Positions 1,090 to 21,750 of a DNA stretch of 25,586 bases are shown in pieces. The notes beneath the pieces are model-generated. The model did not search any database. It worked only from the letters and a program-made list of their open reading frames with translations, and had not been told where the DNA came from. The stretch spans positions 108,660-134,245 of the forward strand of contig NW_003141812.1 of NCBI RefSeq assembly GCF_000003605.2, in the 5' to 3' direction. The DNA comes from Saccoglossus kowalevskii (taxonomy: Eukaryota > Hemichordata > Enteropneusta > Harrimaniidae). A program made the position numbers and the translations under genes. Within the stretch, counting starts at the first letter, position 1. Each line of letters starts with the position of its first letter.

Positions 1090-1128
1090 TTCTCTCCCAT
1101 AATGCATTGCACATATGCTCACACATAA
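1090..1128 (+). repeat. Isolated copy of the ZNF143-like repeat core
   Basis: A single copy of the core CCCATAATGCATTGCACATA lies about 380 bp before the main array at 1470-2300. It is followed by a short echo, ACATAATGCATAATGC. It may mark the original copy from which the array expanded, or an outlying remnant. Confidence 0.7.
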
Positions 1129-1338: not shown

Positions 1339-1469
1339 TGTACTACATTAACACTGCATCTATTCATTCCGCCTGTTTAGACTTCATACTTGAGGTGGTT
1401 CTAACATTTCTTGCTATTTTTGTGCAGAATGATAACAACAACAAAAACAGTTTTAAATTCATGCAACTT

Positions 1470-2300
1470 TTGCACTGCATTGCACATATGCTCAGTAGAT
1501 GTAAAACTTTGAATTTCTTTCCCATAATGCATTGCACATATGCTCAGTAGATGTAAAACTTTCAATTTCTTTCCCATAATGCATTGCACATATGCTCATT
1601 AGATGCAAAACTTTGAATTTCTTTCCCATAATGCATTGCACATATGCTCATTAGATGCAAAACTTTGAATTTCTTTCCCATGATGCATTGCACATATGCT
1701 CAGTAACTTACTCAGTAAATCCACCGCTTGAATGTCTCTCCCATAATGCATTGCACATATGCTCAGTAGAATCACCACTTGAATTTCTCTCCCATGATGC
1801 ATTGCACATATGCTCAGTAGATGCAAAACTTTGAATTTCTTTCCCATAATGCATTGCACATATGCTCAGTAGATGCAAAATTTTGAATTTCTTTTCCATA
1901 ACGCATTGCACATATGCTCAGTAACTTACTCAGTAGATCCACCACTTGAATTTCTCTCCCATGATGCATTGCACATATGCTCAGTAGATGCACAACTTTG
2001 AATTTCTTTCCCATAACGCATTGCACATATGCTCAGTAACTTACTCAGTAAATCCACCGCTTGAATGTCTCTCCCATAATGCATTGCATACCGCCGGTAT
2101 ATGCTCAGTAGAATCACCACTTGAATTTCTCTCCCATGATGCATTGCACATATGCTAAGTAACTTACTCAGTAAATCCACTGCTTGAATGTCTCTCCCAT
2201 AATGCATTGCACATATGCTTGGTAACTTGCCCAGTATATCCAAAACTTTAATTTCTTTCCCATAATGCATTGCACGTATGTTTAAAAACATGCACAGTAG
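1470..2300. repeat. 52/63-bp tandem array with ZNF143/STAF-like cores
   Basis: Fourteen cores CCCATAATGCATTGCA (variants CCCATGATG and CCCATAACG) begin at 1521, 1573, 1625, 1677, 1740, 1791, 1843, 1895, 1958, 2010, 2073, 2133, 2196 and 2259; a partial copy starts near 1470. Spacing is 52 or 63 bp. The longer unit carries an extra ACTTACTCAGT after the CAGTA that follows the core, and one 60-bp unit (from 2073) carries a small insertion containing CCGCCGG. The linker reads ATGCAAAACTTTGAATTTCT or a variant. The core with its leading TT fits the published STAF/ZNF143 consensus YNCCCRNNATNCMYYRCR at every position in most copies, always on the + strand. The array also gives a repetitive minus-strand frame, which I regard as an artefact. 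Confidence 0.95.
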
Positions 2301-3284
2301 ATGCAAATTTTGCAGTTGGTTAAAACTGAATCTGGAAATCTGGTTTTTAAATGTTCTGATGTGTTGAGTTGCTGTGATTAAATTTATAAATAATTGATGT
2401 TCGATTGTTTACCTCTTGTTAAATATTTTTTTTTTATGAGCTAGTTGGGAGCCAACAGTCTTCCTTCAATGAGAATTGTAAATAAACAAACACACTTGAG
2501 GTATTTAATTTCTGCATAAACTGTTTAATTTATCTCTTGGGAGTCACTTATTCCTGGCAGGTCATGAATCTTATAGCTGGGATTGCCTTTTAAAAATGAC
2601 CTGGAGCTGAGAATGGCTCCTCCTGATCACAGTAACACAAATGATTAGGAGAACTGTGCTAATATTATATAATATTCCTTCAAAATGTTGTAAATTGCAT
2701 GATATTAGCTCTTTCAAGGTTTGACTAGTGCAAGTGATAGGCGAGTGGAGGTAAGGTCTGCTATAGTTAGTGTGGGCTGTATTTTTTTTGTAAAATGTTT
2801 TCTTATTGTTTAAATCATGGGATACTGAGCTAAAATGAACTCACATGGAATAAAATGTTTATAATACGCATATATGCGACAACTGGTAAATTACGGATTT
2901 TTGGTGAATCAAAAATTAGTTTTCCAGCTATTTGGATTATCATCTAAATTTTATGCCATCTTATAGGGCATATCACTGTGTTTACTCAATACAATAGTAA
3001 TTTTATTTTATTATTATTAAAACTGAGCTTTGTGCTCCTTAAGTGAACTCAAAGTGCCAGAGTATGAAAGTGCTATTTAATAAGAATTAGTTCAGTTCAG
3101 TTTAGTAAAATAAGTTGTTATTTATGATGCATCAGAATGTGAATCCTACTGCAATGAAGTTGATCGATTACTGAAAAAAACTTGTGTTAAACAGTCTTAT
3201 TTTATTCTGATTTACAAGTGCGTCTTATAAAGAGAATCAATACAAAGTCCAGAGTGTTCTACGGTATTTTCTTCACGACAAATT
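2301..3284. other. Non-coding, AT-rich, nothing recognised
   Basis: No supported gene. A short stretch at about 2593-2626 (AAAATGACCTGGAGCT onwards, then AATGGCTCCTCCTG) resembles 21889-21924, suggesting a low-copy dispersed repeat too short to classify. Confidence 0.5.
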
Positions 3285-5112: not shown

Positions 5113-5255
5113 GCTTGCTGGTCTCTCCGATGATGCGGGGGAGAGAAGACAGTCGCAGCCGAACATTAAATATTCTCCACCACAACAACACCCTTCACAT
5201 CTCGTGGCGGTTTCACCAGACTACGAGAACCAAACAAGAAAATCAGATCCTTATG
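5113..5255 (+). CDS. RhoGEF (ARHGEF11/12-like), exon before the PDZ domain
   Basis: A 143-nt internal exon. The acceptor TTTATTTCTAG precedes it and the donor TATG|GTAAGA follows. It begins with the third base of a split codon and ends with the first base of another. The frame is open throughout and encodes about 47 residues rich in Ser, Pro, Gln and charged residues, beginning LAGLSDDAGERRQSQ and ending RKSDPY. The split Gly codon joins exactly to the next exon, giving SDPYG before the PDZ domain, comparable to the SEIYG that precedes the PDZ domain in human ARHGEF12. The region is likely disordered. The overlapping ATG-initiated frame at 5028-5291 is in a different phase and is not the gene product. 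Assignment rests on splice sites, phase and the junction, since this linker is poorly conserved in the family. Confidence 0.75.
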
Positions 5256-5553
5256 GTAAGAATTCTGTCTTTCCTCTGCATACATTTATAATTCAACACT
5301 AAGGGACATACCATTACAAACTCAGGGAGTGGCAGAATTGGAAAAGAATTTGCACAGGAAAAAAGCCATTGGAAAAAAAAATTGAAGAAAAATAATTTTC
5401 ATATTTCCCACAGTGGTTAAACAAAAACAAAAAACTAAATGAAGGGAAAATATGAAAATATTTTGAAAGTTTTTCTGCAAACCAGATTCAACCTGCATGT
5501 ATGATTATAATCAGATATAGGTGTATGCTGCCCAAACTTCATCTGACAAACTA

Positions 5554-5760
5554 CTGTAAAATATTTATTTTAGCTGAAATTAATTTTCGCTGAAAAGACT
5601 TTTTGAGTGTTTTGTATGGAATTTATTTTCACAGATTTTTGATGAGTTAAATGTGAAATAAGGAAAAAAAAATAAATTTGCTGGATTTTGTTTTCACTAA
5701 ATCATTCCTGCAGCTGAAATAGAGAAAATAAATTCTGAGCAAAAATAAAATATTTTACAG
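5554..5760. mobile_element. MITE, TA-flanked, CTGTAAAAT ends (copy 1)
   Basis: A 207-bp element with inverted ends CTGTAAAATAT and ATATTTTACAG, flanked on both sides by TA. The interior carries motifs such as AATTTTCGCTGAAAAG near the left and AGCAAAAATAAAATA near the right. The TA target site suggests a Tc1/mariner-like source transposase. There is no coding capacity. Confidence 0.85.
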
Positions 5761-6151
5761 TATCTCATTTGTGTTCAAGCAGCTTTGTCTACAAATTACA
5801 ATGAGCCTTTCTTGAAAGCAGTCTGTAACACATTTGTTTTTAATAACGTAAGACTCGAACGTGACTAGTATGCAATGCGGAATTACAATTGATTTGAGCT
5901 TCTGCTGACGTCAGATTTAAATCAGATTAACTTACCTGTTCCCTTAATTGTTTTTTATGGTCATATGTTATAGAGCCAAGGTAAGGTTTATACCAGATTA
6001 GCTAGTATATCCGGTGTAGGAAATAGTGTGGGACAGAGGTATATGCTATAATTGATAATACCCCTTCTTGTAATTTGAAAAAGCTGGAAAGATTTTTTTT
6101 ATATTAAACATGTGTTCCTTTTGCAGCTAGTGTACAAAAATGTTTGAACTA

Positions 6152-6360
6152 CTGTGGAATACTATATTTTCGCTGGAATTAATTTTCGCTGAAAAGGCTT
6201 TTTGGGCATCTTTTATGAAATTTATTTTCACTGATTTTTGATGAGTTAAATGTAAAATAAAAGAAAAAAAAGTATATTCACTGGATTTTATTTTCACGGA
6301 ATCATCCCTTCAGCGAAAATAGCGAAAATAAATTCCAAGCGAAAATAAAGTATTCTACAG
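6152..6360. mobile_element. MITE, TA-flanked (copy 2)
   Basis: A 209-bp element in the same orientation as the 5554 copy and clearly the same family. Ends are CTGTGGAATACT and AGTATTCTACAG with TA on both sides. The interior repeats the motif TTTTCGCTG and its reverse complement CAGCGAAAA, so the whole element can fold on itself. Confidence 0.88.
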
Positions 6361-6540
6361 TATACAAATGGGAATACATATACACTTACATTGATAGTAC
6401 GTACTATTAGTTTTCGTTCGAACAAAGTTTAAAACAGGGATTGATAATAGTGGATAAGTATGATGTATTCGAACAAAAATACCACCTAACACAGAAACCC
6501 ACAAACGTTATATTGTCATTATCGATGAATTGTTATTATC

Positions 6541-7268: not shown

Positions 7269-7548
7269 CAGATTGATGAAATTTTGTGGGCCTTCAACTA
7301 ATTTAGCACTCAAAAAAAGAAACGCCTCACTGCCCCATCTTTGAAAAAAGAATTGACGAGAAACATTTTTTTTGCAATTTGTTTCTAATGAAGGATGGTG
7401 AGTTTATTGCAATCATTGTAAGCAATCAGTATTAAGTGTCTTTCACCATCTTCTCAAAAGCTATTAGTGGGTATTACCTTGTTGAAATCAATTCTAAAGA
7501 TATCGATAATCATGGCTTGATTTTAAGTAATTTCTCAAGTCTGGACTA

Positions 7549-7747
7549 CTGTAAAATAATTTATCTTAGTTGGAATTAAATTTCACTAAAAGACATTTTG
7601 GATGTTTTGTATGTAATTTATTTTACCTGATTTTTTGAAAAGTTGAATGTAAATTATAGGAAAAAGGGTATATTCGCTTGATTTTATTTTCACTGAACCA
7701 TTCCTTCAACGAAAAATAGTGAAAATCAATTCCAAACGAAAATACAG
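7549..7747. mobile_element. MITE (copy 3), outer left end of palindrome
   Basis: Starts CTGTAAAATAA with TA before it and ends AAAATACAG with TA after it. The right end is shorter than in the 5554 and 6152 copies, having lost part of AAAGTATTCTACAG. It forms the outer portion of the left palindrome arm and pairs with 8787-8984. Confidence 0.8.
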
Positions 7748-8216
7748 TATTTAATAAGCATTTCTAGTGATCGTCACTGATTTTCCAAATTCTTGTTAAA
7801 TACTACCTTTGAAGCAAGGTGAAATGTACATTGTGTTCCTGAACAATATGACTAAAATTGTGGTGTTGAACTCGTGTTCTATCAGAAGAAAATGACTGTG
7901 AAAATAAAAGAAAATGACTAAAAATGAGAGAACCCGTCATAGTACTGAATAATTAATGCTTCCACTAAAGGTCAATTCGACTGTCACTTTGAATTATTCA
8001 CTTTCCAGAGTCTTGTTTGCCTTTATACAATTATGTAATTTAACTATCTAATTGCTGATGATCCTCTAGTACATAATGGTAACTGACAGGTTATTTAAAG
8101 ATACCTGTTCTCCAGTGGTGGCTAATTACATACCAATGTTGTACTTTTAATCCTTGGGGTACCGAAATCAACTTTTGTCAACGTTCACAAATACAATATA
8201 AAGTTTTCGTAATTTA

Positions 8217-8325
8217 CTGTAGAATACTTTATTTCCACTTGGAATTTATTTTCGCTGAAGGGATGCTTTCAGAATTTATTTTCGCTGAAGGGATGCTTTC
8301 CAAGCGGGAATATAGTATTCTACAG
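8217..8325. mobile_element. Short MITE at the palindrome centre
   Basis: A 109-bp element with ends CTGTAGAATACT and AGTATTCTACAG, flanked by TA on both sides. It contains a 30-bp direct duplication (8242-8270 and 8272-8300, each ending GGGATGCTTTC). It lies at the symmetry axis and belongs to the same family as the outer copies. Confidence 0.8.
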
Positions 8326-8786
8326 TAAATTACGAAAACTTTATATTGTATTTGTGAACGTTGACAAAAGTTGATTTCGGTACCCCAAGGATTAAAAGTA
8401 CAACATTGGTATGTAATTAGCCACCACTGGAGAACAGGTATCTTTAAATAACCTGTCAGTTACCATTATGTACTAGAGGATCATCAGCAATTAGATAGTT
8501 AAATTACATAATTGTATAAAGGCAAACAAGACTCTGGAAAGTGAATAATTCAAAGTGACAGTCGAGTTGACCTTTAGTGGAAGCATTAATTATTCAGTAC
8601 TATGACGGGTTCTCTCATTTTTAGCCATTTTATTTTATTTTAACAGTCATTTTCTTCTGATAGAACATGAGTTCAACACCACACTGATTTTAGTCATAAT
8701 GTTCAGGAACACAATGTACATTTCACCTTGCTTTAGAGGTAGTATTTAACAAGAATTTGGAAAATCAGTGACGATCACTAGAAAAA

Positions 8787-8984
8787 CTGTATTTTCGTTT
8801 GGAATTGATTTTCGCTATTTTTCGCTGAAGGGATGCTTCAATGAAAATAAAATTCAGCGAATATGCTTTTTTTCTATGTCTCACATTCAACTCATCAGAA
8901 ATCAGTGCAAATAAATTGTATACAAAACACCCAAAGAGCATTTTCAGCAAAAATTAAATCCAGCTAAAATAAAGTATTTCACAG
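8787..8984. mobile_element. MITE (copy 4), outer right end of palindrome
   Basis: Reverse-complement counterpart of 7549-7747. It starts CTGTATTTTCG, ends TATTTCACAG and is followed by TA. It differs from the left copy at many positions, unlike the inner arms. Confidence 0.8.
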
Positions 8985-9283
8985 TATAGAGAAATTATGT
9001 CCATTTGGTTCAAGATTATCAAAAAAATTTAGAAAAATACATAAAAAATGTACCAAAATTTTGTCATGAAAAATTATGGGGCTCTATGTTAAACAGTCAC
9101 CTACTATTAAAGTCAAAGGACACAGTCAAACACTGCGAAAACTGTACTGACCCAAAAAAATTACTATAGTCCCTCTTAGTCAAATAATCCTGGTCAGAAA
9201 AAAAGAAATAGAAATTCAGTTTTTCCCCCTTCTTTAAAATCGTTTCTAATGTGTAACGTGCAGCTAAAAATCTGACTAGTTAT

Positions 9284-9712: not shown

Positions 9713-9762
9713 ATGGAGCAGCTTACAAAGCAGGTGTACAGCAGGGTGACAGAATAATTAAG
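9713..9762 (+). CDS. RhoGEF (ARHGEF11/12-like), PDZ domain exon 2
   Basis: A 50-nt exon between acceptor TTGCTTTCCTGTAG and donor ATTAAG|GTATGT. It supplies two bases to finish a split Asn codon, then GAAYKAGVQQGDRIIK, and ends in phase 0. Joined to the previous exon it gives VKENGAAYKAGVQQGDRIIK, which matches the PDZ helix and GDRI-K strand of ARHGEF11/12 (human ARHGEF12 has EDGAAMRAGVQTGDRIIK). The expected continuation, VNGT followed by the helix with the ligand-binding His, was not found in the remaining 15.8 kb. The exon end is partly duplicated 110 bp downstream. Confidence 0.95.
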
Positions 9763-9883: not shown

Positions 9884-10040
9884 ACCCCCCCCCCCCTCAA
9901 AAAAAATTGTTTTGTCTTGTTTTCATCCCTGTTCAGTGACTTCAAAATGTGTTTTTTACCTTTTGAATCTCGGAGATCTCTACAAAAACTTCCTAATTAG
10001 GGTGGTCAGAATATCTCGTTAGTCATGCTACTGTATTCAT

Positions 10041-10488
10041 ATGTTAAGGGTTTGCTTTACCAGAACCAAAAAAGCATTCACTCTCGACTCATTTTTTAGT
10101 TCATATGCACTATTATGTTGCTGTTACATTTGTTTACCAGTGTCTAGGTGTTATTAATTAATTGCTGAAATGTCTGAAAACACAGATTGTATGTCTACCT
10201 TTTATTCAAGTTTATTGAAAATTATTAGTCCCTGTTCGGACGTAGTCCGAAAACGGGGACTTATGTTAAGGGTTTTGCTTTACCAGAACCAAACAAGCAT
10301 TCACTCTCCACTCATTTTTTAGTTCATATGCACTATTATGTTGCTGTTACATTTGTTTACCAGTGTCTAGGTGTTAATTGCTGAAATGTCTGAAAACACA
10401 GATTGTATGTCTACCTTTTATTCAAGTTTATTGAAAATTATTACTGGTAGTCCCTGTTCGAACGCAGTCCGAAAACGGGGACTTATGT
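10041..10488. repeat. Tandem duplication, ~222-bp unit, with terminal hairpin
   Basis: Two copies start with ATGTTAAGGGTTTTGC-like sequence at 10041 and 10263. Copy 1 has about 7 extra bases in its ATTAATTAATT run. Each ends in an imperfect hairpin of about 33 nt (10229-10261 and 10451-10483). In copy 1 the inner stem is TTCGGAC-GTA-GTCCGAA, and the outer bases are GTCCC and GGGGAC. Copy 2 has changes in the stem (TTCGAACGC). Confidence 0.9.
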
Positions 10489-11416
10489 TTTGACCTCTGT
10501 GTGTCTGTCCTTTCGTCTGTGTGTGCGTCTAGACCTGTATATTAGAAATGCCTGGACCAATCACAATCAACTTCACACATACATCATACATGATATTATA
10601 CATATGCACACCAATTTGTTTCAAGATGGCCGAATGGCGGCCATTTTTGTGCTAAAAATCATCAAAATCAAGCATTTTTCGATTGTTTACAGATGGATTT
10701 TGTTCAAACCTTGTATATACGTTACACATTATAGGACCTTGATNNNNNNNNNNNNNNNNNNNNNNNNNNNNNNNNNNNNNNNNNNNNNNNNNNTTTTTGT
10801 GCTAAAAAATCATAAAAGTCAAGCATTTCTCGGCTGTTAACAGATGGATTTTGTTCAAACTTGATATATACATTAGACATTATGGGATCTTGATGCAAAT
10901 TATTTGTTTTTCAGATCAGATTCAAAATTGCTGTCTGGCGGCCATTTTGTTTTAATGAATGGGTTTCCAGGCCCATATGTCTGACTTGTTTTGACTGATT
11001 ATGTTCAAATTTTTAATATTCATTATACATCATGTCATAGATATACAGATATATTGGTTTGATGATCCTATTCAAAATGGCTGAATGGTGGCCATTTTTG
11101 TACTAAAAAATCATCAAATATCAAGCATTTCTGGCATTTATGGATGGATTTATTTCCAAGATTTATGTAGCATTTTAATTCGTATTTGGCACATACATCA
11201 TACATGTCGGTTTGTTTCATAATCAGATCAAAGATGGCCGAGTAACAGCTGTTTTTATTTTTGGCCATATTACTACTACACAGAACATGTGTTTTGATGT
11301 AATTAAACAATTTGTTGTATATGCCATTTGGGACTCAAGTTTCAAGGACATGCTTGCAACAACCCTGCTTTAATATGACTAGCACAAAGAGAACTTTCAA
11401 AAATTCAACAGGGACT
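10449..11416. mobile_element. Non-autonomous transposon-like element, AGTCCCTGTT ends
   Basis: The left end AGTCCCTGTTCGAA (10449) has an inverted counterpart TTCAACAGGGACT at 11404-11416. No clear target duplication is seen. The interior is a degenerate tandem repeat with units near 10620, 10925, 11070 and 11228. Each unit is built around a palindromic core such as GATGGCCGAATGGCGGCCAT, followed by TTTTTGTGCTAAAAAATCAT and AATCAAGCATTT. An assembly gap interrupts it. There is no coding capacity. The copy at 10227 may be a second left end from the 222-bp duplication. Confidence 0.55.
10744..10793. other. Assembly gap (50 N)
   Basis: Fifty N lie inside the degenerate tandem repeat. The sequence on the two sides is from similar repeat units (TTTTTGTGCTAAAAA-like), so the gap is probably a collapsed or unresolved repeat and its true length is unknown. 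Confidence 0.99.
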
Positions 11417-12705: not shown

Positions 12706-12731
12706 AACTTAAGGCACCATTCAAAAAATAT

Positions 12732-12911
12732 GTAATTAATTTTCGCTGAATATAGTTTTTGGGTGTTTTGTATGGAATTTATATTCACTGATTTTTGACA
12801 AGTTGAATGTAAAGGAAACAAGTTATATTTGCTGGATTTTATTTTCAATGACTCATTCCTTCAGCGAAAATAGCGAAAGTTAATTCCAAACGAAAATAAA
12901 GTATTCTACAG
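12732..12911. mobile_element. MITE (copy 5), 5'-truncated
   Basis: Matches the 6152-6360 element from AATTAATTTTCGCTGAA to the right end AAGTATTCTACAG, followed by TA. The left end CTGTAGAATA is missing, so about 30 bp are lost. Confidence 0.85.
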
Positions 12912-12913
12912 TA

Positions 12914-15235: not shown

Positions 15236-15500
15236 TGGTTCAGATGAGAACTGTGGATGCCTTGTAATGTTTTGAGGGAACCCTCGTGGTTTAAGTGATT
15301 ACCGTTCCAAGCAATTGAAATGTGGGTTTCATAGTTTGGCTTTCGGCTTGCAAGTAGGTCTCATGATCTTGTGCACTTTCAGTTGAAGTTGGTTTTCATT
15401 CAAATTGACTCTTACAATGATTTTATAGTGCTTGGATATTTTTATTGGGGGAATTTGGTGACAAACTTCCCCTCGTTTCTAGGTTTCACTGTAATTAACT
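15236..15500 (+). repeat. 265-bp duplicated segment, copy without insertion
   Basis: It matches 16871-17345 over its full length, apart from the insertion there, with only a handful of substitutions seen by eye. It starts TGGTTCAGATGAGAACTGTG and ends near GTAATTAACT. Part of it (GTGGTTTAAGTGATTACC and, about 25 bp further, GTGGGTTTCATAG) vaguely recalls tRNA A and B boxes, so a SINE origin is possible. Here the insertion point reads TTTTATAGTGCTTGG, the empty site. Confidence 0.92.
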
Positions 15501-16870
15501 TCTCTTGATACCACAAACATTTCCAATAATGAGAATTCAACGTTTCACAGTAATATGCTCGATAGCGCACAATTTGAATTCAAATCAAAAATTGAATGTG
15601 ATGCATCTCTTTATAAGGGTAGGTTTGTTTTTCACCGCATCATAGAACAACCGACTCTTACAACATCTGACATACTACTTTTGAATTCAATTCCCACCTA
15701 TGACCTGTATGCAAAATATAACCCTTTTTGGCATGGTGTTTTCTGCTCAGCTAGCGATGAAATCCCAGAACACAATTTCTCAATTTTGTTTCTACTATGT
15801 CAGATAGTGTTTAAAAGCTGTTTGTGCTAAGATACGAGGAAAAATCTCACAGAGCATAGAAGTTCATGAAATTTTAATTCAGCTTGTAATATTGTTGATG
15901 TGCTCTATTGTAGAATTTGTTTTCAAAACCTTCTCCATCCTCTCTAAATTCTTGTGCTGTGTACATCGTGCTTTAACTATAGAAACCACTGTTAAATTAG
16001 AAGTTTTCTTATCGGATTACTAATCAGAACAAGTACATTTAATGGATTAGCATGTCAGTAGTAAATAAAGCAACTTGCAAAATCTCTGCAGCACTGACAA
16101 TGGTGTCCCACAATGCAATTGGCAAGCTCAAGTTATTTCAAACCATACTGTTCGTCTTCTGTTCTCAAATTTTGCTGGGAGAAATTATGGTGTTCAAAGG
16201 TTTGAAGATCAACATACATCCAAGTAACCCATGTCAAGGAAAACATTTTAGTAGATTTTTAAATTCTGATATACCAGCATATCATGATCAGATTGTTGTG
16301 TTGTTGGGTGTATTGTGTTTACTGAAGTATCAGTAAATTCCTACAGCTTAAAATGCATCGTAAATCTCATATTTGAACTATTAGTAGCGTTTATGATCAA
16401 CAGTTTATTTCGGTATACTAACTTAACTACAGTCAGGCTAGACTAGATGCCGACTATTATCACATGACTTTGAAAAATCCACGAATAATAAACTAGTCAA
16501 TCAGTCTGGAGGGTTGTGAGTAGACCTTATGTAAGGATAAGTCCATGCATGGTAGTTCCCATGGTAATGTTATGAAGTCACTGAGACAGCCAATCAGTGA
16601 TGAGTTCTGTGTCATCTAAATTTTTCACATAACCATTCACCAGACCGTTCTTGAGTGCACTGGATTCCAGGCTAGCTCTGCAGATCAAGCAATTGAACTT
16701 GTAGTTACTGTGTAATATGATGTACAACTTGAACAATATATTTTATGAAAACAAGTTGATTTATTACCCCATACGCAGTGGTCCAATGTTACCCATAATG
16801 CATTGTGTTTACCTGGGAACCAGATTCTACTTCCTCTTTTGAACTCGTATTGTGTACAGTGTATGCAAGT
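15501..16870. other. Intron, nothing recognised
   Basis: Two open frames of about 90 codons (15555-15830 and 16052-16336, +) start with ATG but show no family features, no suitable splice sites and no link to the RhoGEF frame; I treat them as chance. A ZNF143-like site lies at 16790. Confidence 0.5.
16790..16807 (+). promoter_or_regulatory. Solitary ZNF143/STAF-like site
   Basis: TACCCATAATGCATTGTG fits the STAF consensus at 17 of 18 positions and shares CCCATAATGCATTG with the 1470-2300 array, but has different flanks. It may be an independent site or a dispersed relic of the array unit. Confidence 0.35.
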
Positions 16871-17345
16871 TGGTTCAGATGAGAACTGTGGATGCCTTGT
16901 AATGTTTTGAGGGAACCCTCGTGGTTTAAGTGATTACCGTTCCAAGCAATTGAAATGTGGGTTTCATAGTTTGGCTTTCGGCTCGCAAGTAGGTCTCATG
17001 ATCTTGTGCACTTTCAGTTGAAGTTGGTTTTCATTCAAATTGACTCTTACAATGACTTTATAGTACTGTAAAATGACTAATTTTCACTGGGTTTAAATTT
17101 CACTGATTTACCATTTCAGGCATATTCAGTGGGTTTTAAATTCACAGTTTCGTCATTTAGATAATGTGTTCTATGATAAATTTTACATATTCACTGGGTT
17201 TTAATTTAGCGCATTTTTCCAGTCAGCGAAATAAGCTAAATTAAAACCCAGTGAATGATTACCCCCTTTATAGTACTTGGATATTTTTATTGGGGGCATT
17301 TGGTGACAAACTTCCCTTCGTTTCTAGGTTTCACTGTTATTAACT
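16871..17345 (+). repeat. 265-bp duplicated segment, copy with MITE insertion
   Basis: The second copy of the 15236-15500 segment is 475 bp because 210 bp are added at 17064-17275. The remaining sequence is nearly identical to the first copy (for example CTCGCAAG against CTTGCAAG, and CCCTTCG against CCCCTCG). Confidence 0.92.
17066..17273. mobile_element. MITE, third variant (CACTGGGTTTTA type), 208 bp
   Basis: Starts CTGTAAAATGACTAATTTTC and ends near CCCAGTGAATGATTACCCCC followed by TTTATAG, with TA on both sides. The interior repeats TTCACTGGGTTTAAATTTCA in both orientations. The ends match the CTGTAAAAT group and the length is close to the 207/209-bp copies. Alternatively the shared 12-mer CTTTATAGTACT on both sides is a target duplication around a 198-bp insert. 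Comparison with 15236-15500 proves a net 210-bp insertion. Confidence 0.9.
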
Positions 17346-19884
17346 GTCTCAAGTAGCAAGAGTCATAGGAGACAAGTTGTTTATCATAATCATTTTTACT
17401 TTGACTTATAAGATTTGAGGAGAATTAATCAAATTAAAAAAAAAAACATTATAGTAAACAAAACAGAAATACGCTCTATCTTTGCAGCCCCTCACTCCGT
17501 GATTAAATGGTCTGCCCCTTGCCTAGCATTCATAGAGGAGTGTACAAATCCAATAAAAGTTAATTTAAAGCACTTCAGTCAACTTCAGGCACCATCTGCA
17601 AAACAGTTTATAGTCTTCTCTTTTTCACAAGATTTTGTCTGTTTGGTCCAAAATTAAAATTGAATTAGGTTAAAATTACATACAAAAAATGGGGACAAAT
17701 TAACTCAAATTTAAGAGGGGAAAACAATTTGGCGTCAAAGGGTGAAGTATTGTACAGGTTATAATTATGATATTGTTTTGTTGATCCCCCCAACCAATTA
17801 CATAGTACATGTATCTTTAAGTAGTATCTAAGGTCTAATCTAAAGTTATATATTCAAAGTACAAAGACCAAGTAAGGCGTCATAAAATCAGTGGGTGTTA
17901 CATTTTTGTGTAGGAGTATTAGTATTTATTTCATTTATTTACAGTACTTTTAGTTTTTCCTCTATTTTTTTTTTTTTTTTTTTTTTTTATTACATGTTTT
18001 TGACTTTATTATATTTTATGTCAAGATCTCAAATGGGATACGATAGCAATAATGATGTACTTACTTACTTACTTACACATTCTAGCCTTCCACACAGAAG
18101 TCTTGTTAAATTTACCAAGTACATATCTGGCTTGACTGTTGTTAGTTCATTTGGTATGTGTACTTTCTTTGTGATTGCTGTGAGTCTAACTACTGAGCTG
18201 AATAAGGTCAGACAAGGACAGGGGGTGTTGACAATTTGCTAGTTTCTGTGTTGGCATGGGATGTCAATATAGCCAGTGTTTTGATGTTGGAATTCTAGGT
18301 TGTATACAGTGTGACGTACTTGTATAACAAGGAGTGGTTTTTGATCGAGTTGGGAAAAGGTAGGATTTTTTGTTATTACGATACTTGCTGCTGCTTGGCC
18401 AAACTTGATTATAGATGTATGGAGATTAATTTTACACTCATGAAATATCAATTCTATTTTCATGGGATTTTCCATGATTTAAAAGTGTGTAAACATCATG
18501 TTATCTGTGTAATCCTGATAAGAACTGATGTAACCTAGAAAAAAAGGTGATGAAATGTTTTTAACCTTCCCCAAGTAAACATCAGTTCATGAGTTTTGGA
18601 GAAAATTTTAGAAACTTGATCTAGTCGTAATATAGTTATTCTGCCTATTCTGGACAATTGTATTCCCCCAACCAGGGGTTTTATACTATGGGATAAATCA
18701 GGGGAGGGGGTGTGTTTCGTAACTTAAAGGTGAACCGCTCAATCCCATGGATTGCACCAAAGAATCATGGGACACTATTGTTTATGTTGTTTACACTGTT
18801 AATCTATTTTTTGTTATCCATTGTTATTTTAATCCAGAAAGTAAATTTGTTGTGAGATTAGACTTAACTGGAAGGTGCCCCTTTAAAATTGTGTTTCTGA
18901 TATCATTACAAAGAACCAGGAACTTGTCTTAGATGAAGATAAAGGTACATGAGAAGAAAAAGTCTGTCTTCATCATCATCATCATCATTGTTGTTGTGGT
19001 GGTGTCAATAACTTTTTCAAACTTGAATATTTTATTGACCAGTTTGGGATCTTGACCAAGTTTGATTTTGGCATGTGTTGTGTGTATCACATATGACTAG
19101 CTGTGTAGAAGGTATTTGCATGTGTATAGGCCCTCACATTATAATGTCATTTGTTTACATTCTTGCAAAGCAGCATGTGAATGTCTCTCACAGATTAATG
19201 CTAGTTTTGATCTGATGTGGTTGTTAATAACAGGGATACATACATACATATACATGTATATTGAATAACAACAGTAGAGAATAACGCAGTTTTTTATCTT
19301 TATCTTTGGGTGAAAACAACCAATGTACATAAATGCTACTACCCTTGCCTATTCCTACTACTGGTTTCTAAATATATAACATGAAAACTCACACAATGAC
19401 TCATTATTACCTGTGCCTACACCCAAGCACTGCAGACCACCAAGTACTTGAATGTCCTGAACTGGGTTACACGTTTAATGCCAAATATAAATTATGTATA
19501 TATTACATCTCAAAAAAATTGGGGCAAACTTTTTGAACTGTTTGGCGATGTCTTGCACCTCGGTGATTAGTAATAAATTGTAGTTTGAAATCTGTTTCAC
19601 TGATGTTCTTATTTCAAATTGTCATGCCGTAAAATAGAAATGTGAGATTATTGAGACTTCATAAGTATCACATAAAGAAATATTTTACCAGTGAAAATTA
19701 CACTGTTTACAGTATATATAATGATCCAATCTTTTTTCGTGTTACATCTTATCGGTAATTGAGTTAAAATCCAATCACTTTTTTGACCTAACACAGTAGA
19801 CCTTCCTTCTGGGTCTAGAGTGAATTACAACAGAAAACAGTGATTAATAGTCATATACAAGAGAGGAAATAAAACGAGCAAAAT
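17346..19884. other. Intron with simple repeats only
   Basis: Contains T24 at 17965-17988, an (ACTT)n run at 18058-18075, (CAT)6 at 18971-18988 followed by TTG/TGG triplets, and a TACA-rich run near 19238-19258. The other open frames have no support. No exon resembling the missing PDZ half was found. Confidence 0.6.
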
Positions 19885-20540
19885 GTACATTATAATGAGC
19901 AAATCACTTTCAGTTTTACATAAGAGATAAGTTATAACTAGCCAATCACTTTCTGTTTTACATAATAGATTAGTTATAATTAGCCAATCACTTTCTGTTT
20001 TACATAATAGATTAGTTATAACTAGCCAATCAATTTCAGTTTTACATAATAGATTAGTATAATTAGCCAATCACTTTCTGTTTTACATAATAGATATGCT
20101 ATAATTAGCCAATCACTTTAAGTTTTACATATCGGTAATAGGTATGTTATAATGAGCCAATCAATTTCAGCGTTACATAATAGATAAGTTATAATTATCC
20201 AATCACGTTCTGTTTTACATAATAGGTAAGTTATAATGAGCCAATCATTGTCAGTGTTACATAATAGATAGGTTATAAGCCAATCAATTTCAGTGTTACA
20301 TAATAGATAGGTTATAAGCCAATCAATTACAGTGTTACATAATAGATAGGTTATAAGCCAATCAATTACAGTGTTACATAATAGATAGGTTATAAGCCAA
20401 TCAATTACAGTGTTACATAATAGATAGGTTATAAGCCAATCAATTTCAGTGTTACATAATAGATAGGTTATAAGCCAATCAATTACAGTGTTACATAATA
20501 GATAGGTTATAAGCCAATCAATTACAGTGTTACATACTGA
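19885..20540. repeat. 42/39-bp minisatellite with a CCAAT box in each unit
   Basis: About 16 units. The left half has 41-42-bp units (GCC of AGCCAATCA at 19941, 19983, 20025, 20066, 20108). The right half has exact 39-bp units from about 20256 (GTTACATAATAGATAGG then TTATAAGCCAATCAATT). Most units carry AGCCAATCA, a full match to the NF-Y consensus RRCCAATSR. Right-hand units are nearly identical, so that half expanded most recently. Since 39 is a multiple of three, the minus strand reads as a repeating 13-residue peptide (LLCNTVIDWLITY), which I regard as an artefact. Confidence 0.95.
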
Positions 20541-21467: not shown

Positions 21468-21750
21468 GCAACCTTGTTACAACAAACTTTTTATGGGAGA
21501 CTTATTAAATTAGTTTGTTATAGTGAAGTGTTCACTATAATGAACATAATACACTGGGTTTGTTATAGTGAAGTGTTCACTATAATGAACATAATACTCT
21601 GGGTTTGTTATAGTGAAGTGTTTACTATAATGAACATAATACATTGGGTTTGTTACAATGAAGTGTTTACTATAGTGAACATAATACATTGTTGTGAGCT
21701 GGAGACGTGCTATGTGTTCGGTTTATAAAGGAGTTCATTATAACAAGGAT
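21468..21750. mobile_element. MITE-like element with 45-bp hairpin repeats
   Basis: Ends AACCTTGTTACAACAAAC and GTTCATTATAACAAGGAT are imperfect inverted repeats. Between them four units of 45 bp start at 21514, 21559, 21604 and 21649. Each contains or nearly contains TTATAGTGAA-GTG-TTCACTATAA, a 10-bp-arm hairpin, followed by TGAACATAATACAYTGGG. The last unit has decayed arms. The 84-codon frame through the repeats is a by-product. Confidence 0.8.

Follow-up and report, generated by a model that had tools for sequence, protein, structure and literature searches.

A higher-order tandem array of STAF/ZNF143-type words, probably intronic, in Saccoglossus kowalevskii

When a tandem repeat multiplies a near-perfect word for a transcription factor, all in one orientation, is it a binding platform kept by selection or a minisatellite that carried the word along as it grew? 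This question is raised by a stretch of Saccoglossus kowalevskii DNA of 25,586 nt (the window), in which an earlier interpretation made without database searches (the sequence-only reading) had described about 14 full STAF/ZNF143 sites and had raised possible selection on the core and a possible role as a binding platform, boundary or sponge.

Anatomy of the array and its match to the consensus

The locus holds a genuine tandem array with a genuine motif match, made up of the following features:

1467..2320, forward strand: higher-order tandem array, 14 full units preceded by a truncated one, ends approximate
1519..2274, forward strand: 14 SBS1-like 18-bp cores, candidate sites found by pattern and consensus matching, starting at 1519, 1571, 1623, 1675, 1738, 1789, 1841, 1893, 1956, 2008, 2071, 2131, 2194 and 2257
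1561..1996, forward strand: higher-order unit of 218 bp, present twice (1561-1778 and 1779-1996), the copies 93% identical

The 14 cores are thus packed into about 0.85 kb, with core-to-core steps of 52 bp (six), 63 bp (five), 51 bp (one) and 60 bp (one); the spacing of 52 or 63 bp given in the sequence-only reading describes most of the steps but not those of 51 and 60 bp. The truncated fifteenth unit begins at 1467 and has lost the 5' half of its core. In the 63-bp units, CATATGCT is followed by 12 additional bases, and most of these inserts open with CAGTA repeated. A 9-base insertion stands immediately behind the core of the unit at 2071. With tandem units of tens of bp and a higher-order duplication, the array has the make-up of a minisatellite, and it resembles ordinary minisatellites or VNTRs in its short units, its higher-order duplication and its small indels between units, but is set apart from them by the long, near-perfect factor word in its unit.

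Two further observations concern the edges and the interior of the repeat. The 9-base insertion in the unit at 2071-2130 yields TACCGCCGGTA, by eye two 5-bp inverted arms flanking one base, which somewhat resembles a transposon excision footprint. A transposon with inverted ends was considered for the array as a whole and rejected, as the 27-nt inverted repeat at 1448-1474 and 2302-2328 was not significant against shuffled flanks; the best flank inverted repeat scored 13, which was attained in 304 of 3000 shuffled flanks.

The pattern used in the sequence-only reading, YNCCCRNNATNCMYYRCR, is a looser form of the published 18-bp STAF/ZNF143 consensus YWCCCRNMATSCMYYRCR quoted in PMC5006282. The looser form was exact in 12 of the 14 array cores (1519, 1571, 1623, 1675, 1738, 1789, 1841, 1956, 2071, 2131, 2194 and 2257), with one mismatch at 2008 and two at 1893, and so the 14 sites exist but two of them are imperfect. 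Outside the array the looser form was exact at 1094 and one letter short at 16790, and its remaining matches with at most two mismatches in the 25,586-nt window were two on the forward strand (1151 and 12413) and four on the reverse strand, with two mismatches each. The strict consensus was exact in 8/14 cores and had a single mismatch in 5/14, and core 1893 showed two mismatches by reading; outside the array it was exact at 1094 and had one mismatch at 16790. All 14 cores, as well as the sites at 1094 and 16790, lie on the forward strand, which bears out the single orientation claimed previously. The number of exact matches expected per window was 0.0007 (strict) and 0.006 (loose) from base composition, and 0.0025 and 0.005, respectively, from 400 first-order Markov simulations (1 and 2 hits). 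The 14 cores are copies of one another and were counted as one event, and even so the match to the ZNF143 word is far beyond chance.

The kind of site can be narrowed further. At none of 16 sites was an ACTACA module found directly 5' of the core (2/7 letters of ACTACAA at each, at one spacing), which assigns them to the SBS1 kind. SBS1 and SBS2 are both quoted in PMC7154149, which also mentions a proposal that ACTACA guides THAP11 and HCF-1, and the SBS1 example given there has, by eye, 14 of 18 letters in common with the most frequent array core. The likeness to an SBS1-type STAF/ZNF143 site lies in the eight cores exact to YWCCCRNMATSCMYYRCR; the array differs in its tandem multiplication and in being composed of candidate sites that lie outside any demonstrated promoter. 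According to PMC11118474 the ZNF143 motif spans 29 bases, and the TGGGA core (TCCCA on the other strand) is read by fingers 5 and 6, with loose binding around TGGGA being stressed, so that a short consensus does not settle which of the units could be bound. TCCCA was intact in 13/14 cores, a retention that column rates alone would produce (P 0.33).

Conservation of the core within the repeat units

The sequence-only reading had taken the core to be the best-kept part of the unit, which would suggest selection, and had itself named a core no better kept than the linker as one outcome that would speak against function. Changes were counted by parsimony on a neighbour-joining tree of 13 of the 15 units using a hand-set alignment from which the 9- and 12-base insertions were excluded; the tree excluded the 1094 copy and the two end units, the first being truncated and the last having an incomplete linker. 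The 52 columns showed 25 changes, of which 8 fell in the 18 core columns (0.44 per column) and 17 in the 34 columns outside the core (0.50 per column), and the core was kept no better than random columns (permutation P 0.48, 13 units). The claim of a best-kept core is contradicted by these counts, and the outcome is one of those set against a functional reading, in that the core lacks the lower rate of change, relative to the other columns of the unit, that would be expected of a selected platform.

The changes were unevenly spread behind the core, with 2 in the next 13 columns (0.15 per column; P 0.06 when taken alone) and 15 in the remaining 21 columns furthest behind it (0.71 per column). 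The lower rate of the core relative to these furthest columns (0.44 vs 0.71) was counted against a neutral reading of the array. Within the core, the changes were located at positions 1, 3, 8 and 10, where the consensus leaves position 1 free (T/C), fixes positions 3 and 10, and constrains position 8 in its strict form; PMC7154149 gives an SBS1 example with T at position 8, which makes the tolerance of this position uncertain.

The lowest 18-column span started at core position 11 and passed beyond the core end, with a single change (scan permutation P 0.037), and core positions 11-18 together with the next 13 columns showed 2 changes (P 0.002, for a stretch picked after the fact). The best-kept 18-column block, GCATTGCACATATGCTCA, outruns the ZNF143 consensus and might mark the site of another protein or a structural element. 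We consider this improbable: the block was picked with the data in view, P is only 0.06 for the 13 columns that follow the core, and gene conversion alone can yield uneven homogeneity. Moreover, the CAGTA end of the block hinges on the alignment of the 63-bp units, from which the portion as far as CATATGCT is independent.

Comparison of the block pairs gave a mixed picture. Differences between the two 218-bp copies were 6/72 in the core, 8/94 in the linker and 2/52 in the 13-bp block behind the core, and those for the 1665/1883 pair were 4/36, 3/42 and 0/26, respectively. Three further pairs differed at 2, 1 and 2 of 36 core positions, at 0, 1 and 3 of 42 linker positions, and at 9, 3 and 9 of 26 positions of the 13-bp block, the two values of 9/26 stemming, as read, from the 9-nt insertion shifting the register. 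In 3 of the 5 pairs there was less divergence in the core than in the following 13-bp block, which was counted against a neutral reading. Neither the tree counts nor the block pairs show any protection of the core.

Copies outside the array, other repeats and the probable host gene

Two copies of the word outside the array had been noted previously, and both were recovered:

1090..1121, forward strand: isolated upstream copy, with 31/32 letters (97%) as in the nearest units and a core, at 1094, that fits the strict consensus
16790..16807, forward strand: 17/18 match to the pattern YNCCCRNNATNCMYYRCR

The upstream copy is followed at 1122 by a stretch that weakly resembles the core, the 14-mer having 3 mismatches, and a GTTCC/GCTCC pentamer repeat occupies 1275-1338, between the isolated 1094 copy and the array. 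When set against five repeat copies, the 16790 site agreed in 13 to 15 of the 18 letters of the core, and each of its 40-letter flanks in only 7 to 15. The exact 14-mer CCCATAATGCATTG was found again at 16792 in these unrelated flanks, with 0.0002-0.0004 occurrences expected in the window. Such a recurrence resembles what a dispersed binding site might look like and would count weakly against a neutral reading; the argument is a weak one because another array in the window, with a 45-bp unit, also has one 14-mer found elsewhere. In the same part of the window, a segment duplication joins 15236-15504 and 16871-17350, with 98% identity over one part of 197 bp and 94% over another of 84 bp. About 200 bp interrupt the second copy, and the 16790 site lies just ahead of this copy.

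Two other arrays in the window served as controls:

19898-20536: second array, with 15.6 tandem copies at a period of 39 bp, unrelated to the ZNF143 array
21513-21688: third array, with 3.9 tandem copies of a 45-bp unit

The 39-bp array has RRCCAATSR, which we take to be a CCAAT/NF-Y-type word, at 14 places, all on the forward strand. Distinct 14-mers recurring elsewhere in the window numbered 1/407 for the ZNF143 array, 1/115 for the 45-bp array and 0/310 for the CCAAT array. Both a factor word in a repeat and a word recurring elsewhere are therefore seen in arrays for which nobody would claim a function. The two factor words are not equivalent, as RRCCAATSR carries far less information and is much weaker evidence, having five further matches elsewhere in the window, a difference that favours the ZNF143 word. 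The 45-bp array contains an internal TTCACTATAATGAA stretch that is, by eye, nearly its own reverse complement.

These copies and repeats bear on whether the array belongs to a dispersed family carrying the word, such as a satellite-bearing transposon or a genome-wide satellite. This is possible but doubtful, and it overlaps with a minisatellite reading, as it concerns the number of arrays and not their action. It is favoured by the 31/32-letter copy standing apart from the array at 1090-1121 and by several other dispersed repeats within the window, and opposed by the insignificant flanking inverted repeat (304/3000 shuffles reach its score) and by the 16790 site having no flank in common with the array. 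An exact 29-mer of the array had 0 matches in viral contigs and an exact 22-mer had 0 matches in bacterial and archaeal contigs, weak absences in collections not meant for animal genomes; YWCCCATAATGCATTGCA matched two stretches in viral contigs, which we attribute to chance.

Downstream of the array, three coding exons were recognised:

5113..5255, forward strand: coding exon ahead of the PDZ exons, from its translation, with splice sites by eye; starts mid-codon
6984..7085, forward strand: exon with the first part of a PDZ domain, ARHGEF11/12-like, from domain and structure matches, with splice sites by eye
9713..9762, forward strand: exon with the following part of the PDZ domain, from domain and structure matches, with splice sites by eye

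Towards its end, the stretch encoded by these exons enters a PDZ domain, of which it covers a part (Pfam PF00595, E 1.8e-07), and its nearest solved structures were those of human ARHGEF12 (E 1.4e-22), followed by ARHGEF11 (E 2.5e-17). The mid-codon start of exon 5113-5255 implies a further exon upstream, so that the array probably sits in an intron of an ARHGEF11/12-like gene, a Rho regulator, on the same strand. A tblastn search of the window for the next coding exon, using a human ARHGEF12 peptide, gave nothing convincing (best E 0.14), and no RNA family reached its gathering score within the window.

The surroundings of these exons are rich in repeats. A large inverted repeat spans 7547-8986, where the sequence aligns with its reverse complement at 89% across 1461 columns, and a dispersed repeat of ~200 bp occurs in both orientations at 5549-5763, 6142-6363, 7539-7752, 8782-8986 and 12731-12913 (78-84% alike among the nine pairs listed), possibly a MITE family. 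A direct duplication of about 230 bp (10040-10267 and 10262-10489, 92% identical) lies some 250 bp ahead of a run of 50 N (10744-10793).

ZNF143 biology and the readings of the array

A boundary or looping platform would rely on the architectural role of ZNF143, which a 2020 review had named a looping factor (PMC7154149). That role is contradicted by PMC11687419, which reports that acute depletion of ZNF143 leaves chromatin loops unchanged and traces the link between ZNF143 and CTCF sites to an antibody cross-reacting with CTCF, and we regard such a platform as very improbable. The same study describes ZNF143-CTCF motif pairs within SINE/B2 repeats as having no binding signal, from which it follows that a motif within a repeat need not be a platform. 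These pairs are like the array in that the motif is multiplied through residing in a repeat; they differ in being dispersed and, in that report, without binding signal, whereas the array is a tandem one of candidate sites.

A functional homotypic cluster is another way in which the array could matter to its probable host gene. Many ZNF143 sites in the same orientation could act as a tandem-repeat enhancer, an intronic promoter or a repressed element for the ARHGEF11/12-like gene, and the 14 cores, a word far above chance and the intact TCCCA in 13 of these cores all point in this direction. The precedent is a tandem repeat near IFNB1, described in PMC13373173, in which 45 PU.1 motifs form an enhancer that is repressed by MORC3; it is the closest proven case we found for the idea of the sequence-only reading. 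The two are alike in that a tandem repeat multiplies the motif of one factor near a gene, and they differ in that the IFNB1 enhancer has 45 motifs in 192-bp units, compared with 14 in units of about 55 bp, and in that its activity and repression were demonstrated in assays. Against a functional cluster stand the core kept no better than random columns, the missing ACTACA module, and the preference of ZNF143 for active promoters, where most of its peaks lie (PMC11687419), together with its action on initiation (PMC11118474), as the array is outside any demonstrated promoter. Removal of ZNF143 is reported to bring a loss of accessibility at just 10% of its peaks (479/4684; PMC11118474). On balance a functional cluster is unlikely, and it retains the small share of belief that we give it because of the PU.1 repeat near IFNB1.

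In its most specific form, this idea would make the array a ZNF143-driven homotypic enhancer, or repressed enhancer, of the RhoGEF gene, with copy number setting its strength and the sites stacked on one face of the helix. At 10.4 bp per turn, the main steps (52 and 63 bp) come near to 5 and 6 turns; the phase R was 0.94 at that value but fell to 0.26 at 10.5 and 0.13 at 10.6, and this is weak evidence because there are just two main steps. We hold this form to be slightly less likely still than a functional cluster in general.

The reading that we prefer is a local higher-order minisatellite, probably intronic, in which an SBS1-type word was amplified neutrally. It is probable, and it is favoured because of the tandem and higher-order structure, the P of 0.48 for the core and the lack of the ACTACA module. 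A founder unit of about 52 bp would have happened to hold an SBS1-type STAF/ZNF143 word and would then have been multiplied by replication slippage or unequal exchange. The variant 11 bp longer and the duplication of the 218-bp block, both of which are present in the array, would have arisen during this amplification, and the resulting sites may be bound passively where chromatin is open. A selected role for the array, if it has one, is not visible in its sequence. Our searches of the literature on ZNF143 with satellites, tandem repeats or invertebrates, and for ATAATGCATTGC as text, found no such array among the papers listed; a published precedent may nonetheless exist.

As a probable neutral minisatellite, the array is a caution, in that a near-perfect factor word can stand in a repeat far above chance and carry no sign of selection. 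If the array is bound, it would provide a natural test of many ZNF143 sites in a row acting together, and of whether other tandem repeats turn into enhancers as the PU.1 repeat has.
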